Positions 42,399-48,792 of a DNA stretch of 64,000 nt are shown here, piece by piece. The first letter of the stretch is position 1. Each line of letters opens with the position of its first letter. A program made the position numbers and the translations under genes. The DNA is taken from positions 1,736,001-1,800,000 of the forward strand of contig NZ_CP066171.1 of NCBI RefSeq assembly GCF_028867705.1. Direction: 5' to 3'. The DNA comes from Thermoleophilum album (GTDB lineage Bacteria; Actinomycetota; Thermoleophilia; Solirubrobacterales; Thermoleophilaceae). Below the pieces are notes generated by a model, which searched no databases, was not told the origin of the DNA, and saw only the letters and a list, made by a program, of their open reading frames with translations.

Positions 42399-43103
42399 AT
42401 GGCTCGCAGGCACTTCGTCAAGTACACGTTCCTGGCCGTCGACCCCGCCTGGCGGCGGCTGCCGCGCGACGAGCGTGCTCGCCACAAAGAAGAAGTTCGT
42501 GCCGCTTGCGAGGCGTTCGCCGAACAGCACTTTCTGCGCAGCTATTCGCTTGTCGGCACACGCGGCGACTGCGACCTCATGCTGCGCACTGCGGCGCCGA
42601 CGCTCGACCCGATCCACGAGCTGCACGTGCTCCTCAACCAGACCGGGCTCATGGCCTACGCGCGCATCGCGTACTCGTACCTCTCGGCGACGAAACCCTC
42701 GCCCTACGCCGATCGCCCGCAACCGCTCGCGCCGCGCGAGGGACAGGACGGCCGGTACCTCGTCGTCTACCCGATGTGGAAGAAGCGCGAGTGGTATCGC
42801 CTGCCGGCCGAGGAGCGGATGCGGATCATGCGCGAGCACATCGAGGTCGGTCGTCGCTTCAGCGGTATCGACACCAACACCACCTACTCGTTCGGGCTCG
42901 ACGACCAGGAGTTCGTCGTCGCCTTCGACTGCGACGACCCACTCGAGTTCCTGGACCTTGTGGAGACCTTGCGAACCACCGAGTCGAGCAGCTACACGCG
43001 CTCGGAAACGCCCATCTTCACCTGCATCCGTTGTTCGCTGACGCGGGCGTTAGACGCACTCGACGGCGAACGCATAGCGATGACCGCCGACGTCGCTCGC
43101 TGA
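42399..43103 (+). CDS. hemQ: Coproheme decarboxylase HemQ (chlorite-dismutase family)
   Basis: A 234-residue heme-binding enzyme that converts coproheme to heme b in the coproporphyrin-dependent pathway of Gram-positive bacteria. Hallmarks are FVKYTFLAVDPAWR, LVVYPMWKKREWYRLP (with the conserved Tyr) and MREHIEVGRRF, holding the probable proximal His, then TNTTYSFGLDDQEFVVAFD and ETPIFTCIRC. It is not a chlorite dismutase by context. ATG 42399 follows a GGGCGAGCG weak ribosome-binding site. Divergent from the glycosyltransferase fusion across 86 bases. Confidence 0.95.
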   Translation: MARRHFVKYTFLAVDPAWRRLPRDERARHKEEVRAACEAFAEQHFLRSYSLVGTRGDCDLMLRTAAPTLDPIHELHVLLNQTGLMAYARIAYSYLSATKPSPYADRPQPLAPREGQDGRYLVVYPMWKKREWYRLPAEERMRIMREHIEVGRRFSGIDTNTTYSFGLDDQEFVVAFDCDDPLEFLDLVETLRTTESSSYTRSETPIFTCIRCSLTRALDALDGERIAMTADVAR

Positions 43104-43151: not shown

Positions 43152-43658
43152 TCACGCTTCGCCGAAGCGGCGCGCCAGCTCGACCCTGCGATAGGCGAAG
43201 ATCCGCTCGATATCGCGGCGCACGAAAAGGCGGTGGGCGAGCTGGCCGAGCGGCCCGAACGGCAGCGCGTAGAACACGCGGTCGCGCACCAAGGTTCCAC
43301 GCGCATGTTCTTCAAAGGTGTGCGTGTGGTGCCAGAGCCGGTAGGGCCCGGTGACCTGCACGTCGACGAAGCGGTAGGGCGGCTCCCACGCGACGATCGC
43401 GGTTAGCCAACGCACCGGAGCGCCGCGAATGCGGAGCGTGTAGGCGATCTCGGCGCCCTCGACGACCGCAGCGGGAGCGCGCTCGATGCGGAAGCGCAGC
43501 CACGGCGGCGTGATCGCCTCGAGGTTGCGCGGGTCGGCGAAGAACGGAAAAACGGCGGTGAGCGGTTGCGTCAGGACCTGTTCTTGCTCGAAGCGGTGAA
43601 CGCGGGTCGCGAGGACGCGTCGCGCGAGATGGCTGCTCGCGACCGACTTGCCGCTCAT
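43152..43658 (-). CDS. SRPBCC-family (START/cyclase-dehydrase-like) protein
   Basis: A 168-residue lipid- or hydrophobe-binding protein of the SRPBCC fold. Family features are EQVLTQPLTAVFPFFADPRN, LEAITPPWLRFRI and RFVDVQVTGPYRLWHHTHTF with EEHARGTLVRDRVFYALPFG. Proteins of this type often accompany MerR/LitR regulators and photolyase genes in light-response loci. ATG 43658 overlaps the end of the MerR-DICT gene by 4 bases, so sigma factor, MerR-DICT and SRPBCC form one operon. Confidence 0.85.
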   Translation of the reverse strand: MSGKSVASSHLARRVLATRVHRFEQEQVLTQPLTAVFPFFADPRNLEAITPPWLRFRIERAPAAVVEGAEIAYTLRIRGAPVRWLTAIVAWEPPYRFVDVQVTGPYRLWHHTHTFEEHARGTLVRDRVFYALPFGPLGQLAHRLFVRRDIERIFAYRRVELARRFGEA

Positions 43659-44713
43659 CGGCGTCCGCCCCCGACACGGGCGAGGGTGCGTTGTAGGAGG
43701 GAGGCTGCTACCGTCGGCGCCGGCGAGGTGGCGTCGCGCCGCGCACACACGCTTCGCAAGCGCTCGGCGAGCTCGACGAGCCCGCTCGCGGGTGAGGCGG
43801 CCGGGGTAGCCCCCTTGCGTGGCTGCCTGCCGCTGCCCGCCACGGCCAGGAGTTCGGCGGCGCACACGATCGCGGTACGGACGTCTTCGCTGTCGAGCGT
43901 CACGAGCGCCTCAAACGTGCGATCGCTGTCCGCCGAAGCGGGCTCGAGACGCTCCCGCGCGACGAGCGCGAAAGTCAGCGCGGGACCGTACGCGACCAGC
44001 GACCACTCGCGTGCTAACGGGTGGCGGGGCTCCAAAACTACCTCGGCGAGTGCGCTCATGGGGGAACGGACTCCGCCCGGTCCGCAGTGCAAGGCAAGGC
44101 ACACCTGCGCACCCTCGGCGAGCGCCTCCCAGCGCGCGAGCGACGAGCGCAGAAAGCGCGCGCGTTGGAAACAGCCGACGATCGCCCAAAGCTCGTCGTT
44201 TGCCGCCGCCTCGTCCTCGACGCCGTGGCTCAGCGCTGTGAGCGCGGCTTTCGTCTGGACGTGCGACTGCAGTCGTGGCAGCCGCCGCCGCAGGGCGGCG
44301 AACAGCGAGCCGCCGCCAGCGGCCGAGATCGCACCAGCCGGCGGCATTACCGCGAGCTCGTTGGTCGGCGGGCCAGCGGCGATCCCCGCGGCGCGTGTGA
44401 TAGCGGCCGGCAGCGACACCCCTTCACGCCGTAGCGCTTGCACCCGGCGTAGCTGTTCCACTGCCTGCCCGTCGTACGCGCGGCGCCCGCCAGGCGTCCG
44501 CCGCGGTCGCGGGAAGCCGTAGCGGCGCTCCCAGGTGCGCAGAGTGGCGGGAGCGACGCCGACCAACCGCGCTACCTCGCTGAGAGTAAAAAGCCGTTCG
44601 CTCGCCGCAGCTTCGCCACCGCGCTGGGCCGCGCCGTCGAGCGACGGCGGGCGACCGCTGGACCGACGCGAACCCGCCCCGTTGCTGCTCGCGATGTGGC
44701 TGCCGCCGGTCAC
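43655..44713 (-). CDS. MerR-family regulator with C-terminal DICT sensory domain (copy 1)
   Basis: A 352-residue protein. After a 40-residue Ser/Gly-rich start, residues 45-115 are a MerR winged helix: LFTLSEVARLVGVAPATLRT followed by WERRYGFPRPRRTPGGRRAY. The C-terminal half matches the DICT domain, seen in TKAALTALSHGVEDEAAAND, GCFQRARFLRSSLARWEALA and EWSLVAYGPALTFALVARER. There is no B12-binding domain of the CarH type. GTG 44713 overlaps the sigma-factor stop (GTGA). It probably controls the divergent promoter at 45328-45406 together with its paralogue. Confidence 0.87.
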   Translation of the reverse strand: MTGGSHIASSNGAGSRRSSGRPPSLDGAAQRGGEAAASERLFTLSEVARLVGVAPATLRTWERRYGFPRPRRTPGGRRAYDGQAVEQLRRVQALRREGVSLPAAITRAAGIAAGPPTNELAVMPPAGAISAAGGGSLFAALRRRLPRLQSHVQTKAALTALSHGVEDEAAANDELWAIVGCFQRARFLRSSLARWEALAEGAQVCLALHCGPGGVRSPMSALAEVVLEPRHPLAREWSLVAYGPALTFALVARERLEPASADSDRTFEALVTLDSEDVRTAIVCAAELLAVAGSGRQPRKGATPAASPASGLVELAERLRSVCARRDATSPAPTVAASLLQRTLARVGGGRR

Positions 44714-45327
44714 GCCGCCTGCCGTGCGGGTGGCGAGCCGAAAGCCGTGGCGCGGGCCGGACGCGCGCTGGTTTTCTCGAGCTCGGCACGTGCCTTCGCC
44801 AAGCCGAGCCGGACTCTGCTTTTGACGGTTCCCGTCGGTGAGCGCTCGAGCTCCGCTACCTCGTCGGTGCTCAGCCCGAGCAGCAGGCGCAGGGCGACCG
44901 CTCGCCGCTGTTCCACGGGAACGGCACGCAGGGCACGTACCGCTTGGCGCGCGTCGTCGCGTGCCAGCGCGATCTCGTCCGGCCCCGCCGCTGCCGCCAG
45001 CGTGCCGCGCTCGCGCGCGGTGAGACGCTCCACCGCACCGGTCGCGGCAGTACGCGAACGGGCGGCATCGAGCGCTCGACAGCGCGCCACCATGGTGATG
45101 TAGGTAGCGGCCGACGCCCGCCGCGGATCGAACCGTTCGGGCCGCTGCCAGAGCCCGAGGAAGACGTCCTGCACGACGTCCTCGGCGGCCTCGGGATCGC
45201 CCAGCACCCGCGTCGCAGCGGCGCGCGCTAGCGGCGCGCACTCGCGATAGACGCGCTCGAACACGTGCGTGTTCGCCAGGCCCGTCTGCTCCGCCCCCTG
45301 CACCGCACTCCACGCTCTGTGTTTCAT
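44710..45327 (-). CDS. ECF-type RNA polymerase sigma factor
   Basis: A 205-residue sigma-70-family protein with regions 2 and 4 only. Region 2 has EAAEDVVQDVFLGLWQRPER and the DNA-melting part ASAATYITMVARCRALDA; region 4 has VEQRRAVALRLLLGLSTDEV followed by AELERSPTGTVKSRVRLGLA. No anti-sigma gene follows; instead it is coupled to a MerR-DICT gene, so control is likely through that regulator. I chose ATG 45327 rather than the TTG at 45336, which falls in the promoter -10. It is probably a leaderless transcript. Confidence 0.92.
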   Translation of the reverse strand: MKHRAWSAVQGAEQTGLANTHVFERVYRECAPLARAAATRVLGDPEAAEDVVQDVFLGLWQRPERFDPRRASAATYITMVARCRALDAARSRTAATGAVERLTARERGTLAAAAGPDEIALARDDARQAVRALRAVPVEQRRAVALRLLLGLSTDEVAELERSPTGTVKSRVRLGLAKARAELEKTSARPARATAFGSPPARQAA

Positions 45328-45406
45328 GCTGAACAAATATAGCTATTCATGATGACTAGCTTTCTTCTCCCACGTGAGCGCGCCGCATGCCACGCTTCCT
45401 GCTGCG
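45328..45406. promoter_or_regulatory. AT-rich divergent promoter/operator between sigma-factor and MerR-DICT genes
   Basis: This short gap is strikingly AT-rich for the window (45328-45365). On the minus strand TATATT at 45341-45336 is a good -10 that would start transcription almost at the ATG of the sigma-factor gene. An inverted repeat, AGCTA at 45341-45345 and TAGCT at 45357-45361, spans 21 bases and overlaps the -10, the layout expected for a MerR-type dimer. The divergent MerR-DICT gene starts at 45407 (or GTG 45374). Confidence 0.5.
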
Positions 45407-46276
45407 ATGCCGGACGAGCACAACCTGATTGGAATCGCCGAACTGGCCGCCGCTTCCGGCGTGCCGCAAGCGACCCTGCGCACGTGGGAGCGCCGTTACG
45501 GCTTTCCGAGACCGCGCCGCAGCCCCTCGGGCCGGCGTCTCTTCGACCGCGACGCAGTCGAGGCGGTGCGCCGCGTCACGACACTGCGTGCCCAGGGACT
45601 GTCGCTCGAGGCCGCAATCGCTCTCGCTCGCGACGAGGTCGCTGCTCCGGGAAGCCCCTTCGTGCACGCCGCGAGCGTGGCGGTGGGCGTGTCGCGTCTT
45701 GTCGTCACCAAGCGCACGTTGGTCGCGATCAGCCGCGCGATCGAGGACGAAATCGCCTTGCGCCTGCGGGGCGGCGTGGTCGTCGGCTTCTTTCAGCGCG
45801 AGCGCTTTTTCCGCCAGTCCGCGCGGCGCTGGGCCGACCTCGCGAGCGCGGCCGACGCTTGTTTCGCCTTCGCCGACTTCCGCCGGGCACGCGCGGGGGC
45901 GGTGTGCGAGCTGCCGCTTCCCTCCGCTTCCGAGGCACGTCGCGACTGGGCGATCGTCGCCGCGTCGGGAGAGTTCGCCGTGCTTTTGTGCGGGCGCGAG
46001 CTCGCGGCAGCGCCGCGCCTTCAGGACGACCGGCGCCGCCGCTTCGAGGCGTTCTGGACGACGGAAATAGGAGCGATCAAGGCCGCGCTCGCCAGTGCCC
46101 GACGAATCGCGCACACTGTCGCCGATGGGGAGAGTCGTGAAGCGCTTGCGCCGCTCGACGAGGTGCTCGAAAGCGGTCGCGTGGCCCCGCCTTCGTTAGC
46201 GGCTCTCGTGTCCTTGTGCAACCGGATGGTGCTCTACGCCGGCGAGGGCTTGCCGGAGGAGATCGCGTCGATCTGA
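45407..46276 (+). CDS. MerR-family regulator with C-terminal DICT sensory domain (copy 2)
   Basis: A 289-residue paralogue of the regulator at 43655. The MerR helix-turn-helix is LIGIAELAAASGVPQATLRT followed by WERRYGFPRPRRSPSGRRLF, nearly identical to copy 1. The DICT domain has VTKRTLVAISRAIEDEIALR, VVGFFQRERFFRQSARRWAD and RRDWAIVAASGEFAVLLCGR. ATG 45407 gives the same spacing to the DNA-binding helix as in homologues; GTG 45374 would add 11 residues. Its 3' end overlaps the convergent fprA-type gene by 81 bases. Confidence 0.87.
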   Translation: MPDEHNLIGIAELAAASGVPQATLRTWERRYGFPRPRRSPSGRRLFDRDAVEAVRRVTTLRAQGLSLEAAIALARDEVAAPGSPFVHAASVAVGVSRLVVTKRTLVAISRAIEDEIALRLRGGVVVGFFQRERFFRQSARRWADLASAADACFAFADFRRARAGAVCELPLPSASEARRDWAIVAASGEFAVLLCGRELAAAPRLQDDRRRRFEAFWTTEIGAIKAALASARRIAHTVADGESREALAPLDEVLESGRVAPPSLAALVSLCNRMVLYAGEGLPEEIASI

Positions 46277-47677
46277 GAACTTGACCCGCGGGCGTCCTTG
46301 GGCGCGCCCGCGTTCGCGTTCGGCAGCGTCAATCCGCAGCCATCCCGAGTAGTCGACGAGCACCACCCGGTCGCGCAAGCCGAGCTCGTCGAGAGGGTCG
46401 CGGTGGCGATCGGTGGATCGCACCGAGTCTGCGGACGCTTGCGACTCGACCGTCGCCTGCCTGTCGAGATCTTCGAGCACGGCCGCGGCCGTCTCGGCGG
46501 CGTCCTGCTTGTTCGTGCCGATCACCCCTGTCGGCCCCCGTTTAGCCCACCCTGCAACGTAGAGTTTTGGCAGAGGGGCGCGACTGGCCGGATCGAGCAC
46601 CCGCCCCCGATCGTTGGGAACGATCCCGCGCTCGGCATCGAAGGGAAGCTCGGGCAAGGGCTCGCTGCGGAAGCCGACCGCCCGCACCACGAGCCCGCAC
46701 GCGATCGATTCCGTCAGGTCGGTGGCTACCGCAACCACACGACCGCCATCTTCGACAAGCGTGTTGCGCACCACCTCGACGGCCGCGACACGACGGTCGC
46801 CGACGATGCGCAGCGGGGAGCGGCGGAAGAGAAAACGCAGCCGTCGCTCGGCGTGCCCGCCCTGGCGGCGCGCGAACTCGCTGAACGTCTCGAGATTGCG
46901 ACGCCGTGTGGGATCGTCGGCGCGGGCGAGCGTGCTGCGCGAGGCCGGCTCGAGCTCGAGCTCGCGCGGATCGACCACGACCGCACAGCCCGGTATCGCG
47001 CCGAGCTCGCGCAGCTCGGGGTTCGTGAAAGATGCCTCGGCCGGCCCCCGGCGCCCGACGATCACCACCTCGCGCACACGGCTGGTCCGCAGCGTCTCCA
47101 GAGCGTGGTCGGCGATGTCGGTGCGCGCCAAAAGATCGGGGGGCGAGAGCAGGATGCGCGCGACGTCGGCGGCGACGTTGCCGTTTCCGACCACGACCGC
47201 CCGCTCGCACGAGAGGTCGACGGGCAGGTCGCGGTAGTCGGGATGGCCGTTGTACCAGCTGACGAAGGCGCCCGCACCCAGCGAACCGGGAAGGTCCTCG
47301 CCGGGTATACCAAGCTCGCGGTCGACCGGCGCGCCGGTCGCCACCACCACCGCGTCGTACACGTCGAGGAGCTCGGAGAGCGTGACGTCGCGGCCGACTT
47401 CGACGTTGCCGAGGAAGCGAAACCCGGCGAGCCGCGCGACGCGCTCGAAGGCGCGCGCTACCGCCTTGATGTTCTGGTGGTCGGGGGCCACACCGAAGCG
47501 AACGAGCCCCCACGGGGTCGGCAGACGCTCGTAGACGTCGACGGCCACGGCGCCCGGCCGCTGCCGCAAGAGGAACCCCGTGACGTACATGCCGGCCGGC
47601 CCGGAGCCGACCACCGCCACCGCTGCCCTAGCTTCGCGCTCGGCCGCTGGCACCTCCAGCAGCCTATCCGCGTGCAC
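46196..47677 (-). CDS. fprA: Ferredoxin/adrenodoxin-NADP+ reductase (FprA type)
   Basis: A 493-residue flavoprotein that moves electrons between NADPH and ferredoxin, of the mitochondrial adrenodoxin-reductase class. FAD-binding GxGxxG is VAVVGSGPAGMYVTGFLL; the class signature YERLPTPWGLVRFGVAPDHQ is intact; NADPH binding is VVGNGNVAADVARILL with VIVGRRGPAEASFT. The end PTGVIGTNKQDAAETAAAVL contacts FAD. The C-terminal 27 residues run past the usual end and overlap the convergent MerR-DICT gene by 81 bases. It lies 14 bases below the RDD gene in the same direction. Confidence 0.93.
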   Translation of the reverse strand: MHADRLLEVPAAEREARAAVAVVGSGPAGMYVTGFLLRQRPGAVAVDVYERLPTPWGLVRFGVAPDHQNIKAVARAFERVARLAGFRFLGNVEVGRDVTLSELLDVYDAVVVATGAPVDRELGIPGEDLPGSLGAGAFVSWYNGHPDYRDLPVDLSCERAVVVGNGNVAADVARILLSPPDLLARTDIADHALETLRTSRVREVVIVGRRGPAEASFTNPELRELGAIPGCAVVVDPRELELEPASRSTLARADDPTRRRNLETFSEFARRQGGHAERRLRFLFRRSPLRIVGDRRVAAVEVVRNTLVEDGGRVVAVATDLTESIACGLVVRAVGFRSEPLPELPFDAERGIVPNDRGRVLDPASRAPLPKLYVAGWAKRGPTGVIGTNKQDAAETAAAVLEDLDRQATVESQASADSVRSTDRHRDPLDELGLRDRVVLVDYSGWLRIDAAERERGRAQGRPRVKFSDRRDLLRQALAGVEHHPVAQGHESR

Positions 47678-47691
47678 GACGAGCGCTGCGG

Positions 47692-48792
47692 TCAGCGTCC
47701 GGTGCCCGCGGCGGGATCACGGTCGCCGGCGGACCCTCCGTTCTCCCAGTCGCCCATCAGCAGCTCGATCGGCGACGAGACGACCTGCGTCTGTCGCACC
47801 CGCACCTCTCCGCCGGCGCTGTCGGGCGTAGCCACGTCGCCGGCCACGTTGTCGTCCGCTGGCGTCGAGCCCTCAGCGCTCGCGTCGCGCGCCGGGGCCA
47901 TCGAGTCCTCCGCCCGATCGGCTTCGCTCGCGCCCCCTGTCGCGGCGGGGCGGTCGGGCTCGACCGCGGACGCCTGCTCGGCCCCGGGCAGATGCTCCTC
48001 TGCCGAAGCGGGCGCCTGCTCGGCGACCGCCGGCGCCTGCTGCTCGGCCACAGAGTGCTCCTCCCCGGCCACAGCCGGCGCGCCCTCAGCCACAGCGACT
48101 GCCTCGTCGGAAGAGGTGTCCGCCTCCTCGGCCGCGGCCGGCGGTTCCTCGGGCGCTGGCGTGACTTTCTCGGCCGCGAGCGCAGGCCCCTCTTCCACGG
48201 GCGCCGCCTGCTCGGACGCGAGCGCCGCGGGGGCGTCGACGCTCTCGACCGTTTCGACGGTCTCGCCCTGAGCGCCGCTTGCGTCTTCCCAAAGCGCAGC
48301 CTCTTCGCTAGCTTCGCTGGCCGGCTCTTCCGCCACCCACGTGACGCCGGCAGGGGAGGCGGCGGCGCGCTCCGGCTCAGCGTTCTGGTCTAGTACCAAC
48401 GTTCCAGCTGCGATGTCGCCGAGGCGCTGTCGCCGCTCGCCGGTACGCCACATGCTCACCAGCCCGACCAGATAGACGGGCAGCGCGTCGACCAGCCGCA
48501 AGACGTTGCGCAGCAACACCTCGCGGAACCCGGGCAGGCTGCCGTCGGTGCGGAACACGCGCAGGCGGAAAAGCCGCTTGCCGAGCGTCTGCCCGTTCAA
48601 AGCCTCCAGCGCTACGAAGTAGTAGAGCGACCAAAGCACGGCCATCGCGCCGCCCTGCACACCACCGCCGGTCACCCCCTGCACGATCACGAAGATCCCG
48701 GCGCAAACCACGGCGTCGACCAACCCGGCGGCGATGCGCCTCCCGTCGACGCGACGACCGCCGTACTCGAGCAGTCCGGCACGGATATCCAT
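47692..48792 (-). CDS. RDD-family membrane protein with a long acidic, Ala/Glu/Pro-rich tail
   Basis: A 366-residue protein. Residues 1-140 are an RDD domain: GRRIAAGLVDAVVCAGIFVI with Arg and Asp in helix 1, LNGQTLGKRLFRLRVFRTDG, and LVSMWRTGERRQRLGDIAAG. Residues about 145-340 are a low-complexity cytoplasmic tail of acidic Ala/Glu/Pro/Val repeats (such as EEPPAAAEEADTSSDEAVAV), likely disordered. RDD proteins are thought to be transporters or membrane modulators. It precedes the FprA gene in the same operon. Such a long acidic tail is unusual for the family. Confidence 0.82.
   Translation of the reverse strand: MDIRAGLLEYGGRRVDGRRIAAGLVDAVVCAGIFVIVQGVTGGGVQGGAMAVLWSLYYFVALEALNGQTLGKRLFRLRVFRTDGSLPGFREVLLRNVLRLVDALPVYLVGLVSMWRTGERRQRLGDIAAGTLVLDQNAEPERAAASPAGVTWVAEEPASEASEEAALWEDASGAQGETVETVESVDAPAALASEQAAPVEEGPALAAEKVTPAPEEPPAAAEEADTSSDEAVAVAEGAPAVAGEEHSVAEQQAPAVAEQAPASAEEHLPGAEQASAVEPDRPAATGGASEADRAEDSMAPARDASAEGSTPADDNVAGDVATPDSAGGEVRVRQTQVVSSPIELLMGDWENGGSAGDRDPAAGTGR

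Follow-up and report, generated by a model that had tools for sequence, protein, structure and literature searches.

Gene content of the locus

The window, a stretch of 64,000 nucleotides that covers bases 1736001-1800000 of a single-contig genome of 2.11 Mb, contains an ECF sigma factor gene (SIG) flanked by two genes for MerR-DICT proteins, D1 and D2, together with a gene for an SRPBCC protein (Table 1). SIG encodes a SigK/RpoE-like sigma factor of about 205 aa that possesses regions 2 and 4 only; its ATG start at 45327 is kept in the conspecific genome G541 and in the congener G115, and an alternative TTG lies at 45336. Both DICT assignments score well above the curated cut-off of PF10069 (51.5 and 48.4 bits vs 23.8), and no DICT domain other than these two was found in the genome. 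D1 and D2 are paralogues with 37-40% identity, and a possible earlier start of D2, a GTG, lies at 45374. The Pfam call for the SRPBCC protein is weak, falling under the cut-off of 27.4 bits, but a homologue in L147 (44% identical) passes it at 37.9 bits. That these genes are chance open reading frames was ruled out by the Pfam matches and by conservation in 12 species.

Table 1. Coordinates of the genes and promoter features at the sigma-DICT locus
Feature	Position	Strand	Remarks
HemQ	42399-43103		flanking gene
SRPBCC / polyketide-cyclase-like protein, 168 aa	43152-43658	-	PF10604, 25.1 bits
MerR-DICT D1, 352 aa	43655-44713	-	MerR_1 PF13411 6e-17, DICT PF10069 1.2e-13
DICT domain of D1	43949-44302		
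ECF sigma SIG	44710-45327	-	Sigma70_r2 PF04542 4.2e-19, r4_2 PF08281 2.2e-8
Candidate operator box 1	45324-45332		TCATGCTGA on +; overlaps SIG start codon
Divergent intergenic region	45328-45406		between SIG and D2
Candidate operator box 2	45347-45355		TCATGATGA on +; upstream of SIG -10-like TATATT
MerR-DICT D2, 289 aa	45407-46276	+	MerR_1 PF13411 4.6e-15, DICT PF10069 1.2e-12
DICT domain of D2	45689-46000		
Ferredoxin-NADP-reductase-like protein	46196-47677		flanking gene

Because each gene shares 4 nt with the next (GTGA for SIG/D1 and ATGA for D1/SRPBCC), SIG, D1 and the SRPBCC gene very likely form one operon, from which the D2 gene diverges. The preliminary description had already recognized the ECF sigma gene between two MerR-DICT paralogues and the coupling of the SRPBCC gene to one of them, and both points stand; by contrast, D1, which it had placed as a divergent partner at a shared promoter, is co-transcribed with SIG, as judged from the gene overlap. 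The flanking genes are the same on both sides in G115. There, as in the window, HemQ (chlorite dismutase family, heme synthesis) is convergent to the SRPBCC gene, and its porphyrin chemistry would suit a photo-oxidative theme. The 3' end of D2 overlaps the convergent reductase-like gene by 81 bp (46196-46276), and in G115 (L106) the two genes as called overlap by ~170 bp. At 47692-48792 lies a gene for a membrane protein of the RDD family whose C-terminal part is long, of low complexity and rich in Ala and Glu.

No anti-sigma gene adjoins SIG, whose neighbors are D1, SRPBCC, D2, HemQ and the reductase-like gene, so that the absence of a local anti-sigma factor, with MerR-DICT in its place, was borne out. 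The zf-HC2 domains that the genome does encode all lie next to two other sigma genes.

Pairing of sigma and MerR-DICT genes in relatives

The sigma protein, whose closest named relatives recovered by similarity are Thermoleophilaceae, was searched against 61 relatives, and the fetched loci were then examined by tblastn. All 12 sigma factors that scored above 110 bits (G000, which is the window's genome, G115, G121, G523, G511, G528, G512, G524, G514, G510, G507 and G508) adjoin a MerR-DICT gene, and none of the next eight, which scored below 107 bits, has one beside it. Genomes of the family without MerR-DICT contained no close sigma orthologue. Thus the switch is not peculiar to the window but is a unit conserved in at least 12 species of the family. 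The MerR-DICT gene lies downstream of the sigma gene in 11 of the 12 and is divergent in one (G524); the position of D1 is matched in G115 and nine other species, and the 4-nt overlap between the two genes recurs in G115, G511, G514 and G507. Among the genomes examined, D1-type and D2-type arrangements occur together only in the window's genus (G000, G541 and G115), where D2 orthologues lie at the same place with 47% (G115) and 96% (G541) identity.

In a tree of sigma factors, the six DICT-coupled members form one clade (support 100/100). In the MerR-DICT tree, each orthologue pair, that of the D1 proteins and that of the D2 proteins, is strongly supported, and D1 and D2 may have arisen by a lineage-specific duplication, a grouping with weak tree support (78/63). 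A separate MerR-DICT clade (100/99; L108-L113, in G017, G023, G077, G103, G111 and G142) is found without a sigma gene, near a gene for a GlpX-like phosphatase and, in several cases, an NmrA-like SDR.

Among ECF sigmas fetched by similarity, an RskA-like anti-sigma gene lies directly 3' of most of the nearest Actinomycetota sigmas and of one Chloroflexi sigma; for one such anti-sigma, in G136, Pfam confirms both RskA_C and zf-HC2. The sigma tree does not order the DICT-coupled and RskA-coupled sigmas. Since the DICT-coupled sigmas form a single clade and RskA occupies the same slot in their relatives, coupling to MerR-DICT probably represents a derived alternative to RskA.

A CarH-type DNA-binding domain joined to a DICT sensor

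The HTH of D2 is closest to the structures of CarH and CarA (E 3e-20; Z 12.5), and the NCBIfam CarH model scores 68 bits against a cut-off of 400, with the HTH part alone aligned. Hence the proteins share the CarH-type MerR HTH of the CarH/LitR family and lack its C-terminal cobalamin-binding domain; because DICT takes the place of this B12 domain, the unit does not belong to class I CarH/LitR. D1 is long and diverged, yet its MerR HTH is complete and conserved.

AlphaFold (AF2) models of D2 and of the isolated DICT part, built from six-sequence alignments, reached pLDDT values of 86 and 90, respectively. The DICT model matched 2f5t with Z 10.2 over 128 residues and, more broadly, the sugar-binding domain of TrmB together with TrmBL2 (Z 9.3-10.2 over 125-129 residues, 6-9% identity); it also matched NucT, Zucchini, phospholipases D and polyphosphate kinase, and the recognizable matches among those listed belong to the PLD-like superfamily. 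Foldseek, taken by itself, gave weaker matches (best E 5e-3). The DICT domain is thus predicted to adopt a PLD/TrmB-like fold. Since the HxK of the catalytic HKD motif is missing in 19 of 20 MerR-DICT sequences, the domain likely serves for binding and not for catalysis. In the literature searched, neither a ligand nor a fold of DICT was described, nor was the term "DICT domain" applied to a MerR protein.

Paired boxes in the divergent promoter

The preliminary description had reported an AT-rich divergent promoter with an inverted repeat. Its AT-richness is evident, with 38% GC at 45328-45372 vs 70% for the window, but a search for a single inverted repeat as the operator returned a tandem pair instead, namely two short TCAnnnTGA boxes, each close to a palindrome, at a spacing of exactly 23 bp. 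The boxes are found at the same place and spacing in G541 (TCATGATGA/TCATCCTGA) and, read on its sigma strand, in G115 (TCATACTGA/TCATGATGA); across these three genomes TCA and TGA are constant and the middle letters vary, in keeping with the operator region that had been proposed between SIG and D2. With three mismatches allowed, the paired boxes occur at one place per genome in two whole genomes (reversed-pattern control, 0), a scan that tests uniqueness and not discovery, as the sites that it matched had themselves supplied the pattern. Conservation of the intergenic region reached 22/36, compared with at most 21 in 300 shuffles.

In nine promoters that had not been used for discovery, a 23-bp direct repeat was the best spacing for 8-10-mers (shuffles, p about 0.001 or less), and for 7-mers spacing 23 tied with 15; G508 was excluded from this comparison because its sigma start is unclear. 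The signal is driven by G511, G507, G523 and G512, with TGTTGA-like halves, and is weak or absent in the other five (G121, G510, G514, G528 and G524). The box letters differ by genus, being TCAnnnTGA in the window's genus and TGTTGA-like in others. A sigma-70 promoter scan of the divergent region gave no match.

One box covers the SIG start codon and would therefore suit a repressor. By this operator evidence, control of the sigma factor by MerR-DICT through repression of its gene is favored over direct binding of the sigma protein. The latter is nevertheless the main rival: D1 may be a true anti-sigma factor that has moved into the slot of RskA and binds SIG directly until a signal read by DICT sets it free, the operator then serving D2 alone. 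Its position, the same as that of RskA beside sister sigmas, its 4-nt overlap with the sigma gene in the window and the four relatives named above, and its length and divergence all speak for such a role. Against it, the MerR HTH of D1 is complete and conserved, the MerR-DICT gene beside the sigma gene of G524 is divergent and uncoupled, and the 23-bp repeat is kept in some species that have the downstream MerR-DICT alone. We therefore regard this alternative as unlikely. Equally doubtful is the more ambitious proposal that MerR-DICT proteins are a distinct kind of sigma gatekeeper, with a CarH-type HTH and a catalytically dead PLD-fold sensor, which displaced the anti-sigma factor in an actinobacterial family and combine repression of the sigma gene with direct anti-sigma action.

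Function suggested by neighboring genes

Neighbors were counted beside the sigma-DICT unit or beside MerR-DICT alone. Genes for a photolyase, a photolyase-related protein (DPRP), an SDR, a lycopene cyclase and an SRPBCC protein lie near the unit in G528 (L005), and lycopene cyclase and SRPBCC genes in G512 (L006). MerR-DICT is accompanied by an MpaB-type oxygenase and a photolyase in G093, and by an amine oxidase-DUF1365-CFA-photolyase group and an SRPBCC homologue in G136. SRPBCC homologues near MerR-DICT genes are 69% (G115), 53% (G136), 57% (G524) and 44-45% (G379 and G262) identical to that of the window. This company, from photolyases and lycopene cyclase to amine oxidase, DUF1365 and CFA synthase, agrees with the connection between the SRPBCC gene and light loci that had been drawn earlier. 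Because light-repair and carotenoid genes accompany the unit in relatives, it is probably a cousin, independent of B12, of known bacterial light/oxidative-stress switches.

In the window's genome, the photolyase and crtI-crtB genes are located elsewhere, and the boxes are absent upstream of the photolyase gene and crtI. In L119 (6447-12373), the genome's own photolyase gene has genes for a glycosyltransferase and a GH57 enzyme nearby; since homologues of these two lie close to the sigma-DICT unit in L006/L186, the unit and the photolyase may once have been neighbors, as in L005. Beyond the SIG promoter, a genome-wide search for the paired-box pattern returned no site, and hence no regulon by way of the operator; nor could a sigma promoter motif be derived in this genome. 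A candidate sigma promoter shared by G523, G528 and G512, GGTAAAC...CTACACT, was noticed by eye.

In relatives, the unit adjoins groEL more often than light genes, with groES-groEL directly upstream in six of the 12 species (G121, G511, G514, G510, G507 and G508), and general or oxidative stress is therefore as plausible a signal as light. It could further be argued from this that the unit is a heat or protein-folding switch native to the groEL neighborhood, to which light genes were recruited later. Yet there is no groEL near the unit in the window, the MerR-DICT loci of G136 and G093 lie in photolyase islands without groEL, and a neighborhood of housekeeping genes may be accidental, so that we give this explanation little credence.

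A model for the sigma-DICT unit

The reading that we prefer, with somewhat better than even confidence, is that of a two-tier stress switch of the LitR-LitS type in which a DICT sensor replaces B12. In uninduced cells, D2 (and D1) would bind, through a CarH-type MerR domain, the TCAnnnTGA boxes near the -10-like element and the start codon of SIG, and would thereby repress SIG along with D1-SRPBCC, and probably D2 as well. The operator would be freed once the DICT domain senses a signal; given the predicted PLD/TrmB-like fold, this signal would most likely be a small molecule or lipid that binds to the domain, perhaps a product of photo-oxidation. SIG would then be made and could guide RNA polymerase to a regulon elsewhere in the genome, concerned with photo-oxidative or general stress, while D1, made together with SIG, would provide negative feedback. 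Binding and repression by D1 and D2, the kind of signal and the regulon are inferred. The opposite polarity, in which D1 and D2 would activate in the classical MerR manner, untwisting a long spacer and allowing SIG transcription only on signal, might be expected from the MerR_1 HTH and from the description of activated LitR of S. coelicolor as promoting litS transcription (PMC12705666), but it appears quite improbable: the tandem boxes stand on either side of a -10-like element and extend over the start codon, a layout unlike that of one dyad within a spacer of 19-20 bp, and no sigma-70-type promoter was recognized at the boxes.

The unit looks like an ECF sigma factor under the control of a one-component regulator that binds DNA, in place of an anti-sigma factor. 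As DICT is linked here to one output, namely a sigma gene that has a candidate operator, its signal should be testable with a simple reporter.

Comparison with known systems

Several known systems resemble parts of the unit. SigK-RskA comprises an ECF sigma factor of the same broad group with a partner gene in the same downstream slot, but the partner here is a DNA-binding MerR-DICT protein rather than an RskA-type anti-sigma factor. RpoE-ChrR of Vibrio and Rhodobacter, together with a MerR regulator, mediates a photo-oxidative response that includes photolyase and CFA genes (PMC5241685), whereas the locus described here has no ChrR-like gene, and its MerR-DICT genes stand on either side of the sigma gene itself. 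The effector domain of TrmB and TrmBL2 matches the DICT model, although these regulators have another HTH and belong to another domain of life, and identity is only 6-9%. CarH and CarA, of Thermus and Myxococcus, offer the closest solved structure to the HTH of D2, but MerR-DICT proteins have no cobalamin-binding domain, and their sensor is predicted to be PLD/TrmB-like. LitR proteins of the B12-free classes II-V likewise join a LitR-type HTH to a C-terminus of a different sort (PMC9758184), which that study does not describe as DICT, and no LOV partner gene was seen at the present locus.

Of the working systems, LitR-LitS of Streptomyces comes closest. In S. coelicolor, the MerR photoreceptor LitR controls litS, and sigma-LitS drives the crt genes (PMC12705666, PMC5401885). 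There as here, a MerR regulator gene lies beside an ECF sigma gene, and the sigma-DICT unit probably works in a similar way; it differs in having DICT for the B12-binding domain, two regulators and unlinked crt genes. On the best reading, therefore, the unit would be of a kind already known, a LitR-LitS-like cascade, in which the new part is the DICT sensor.
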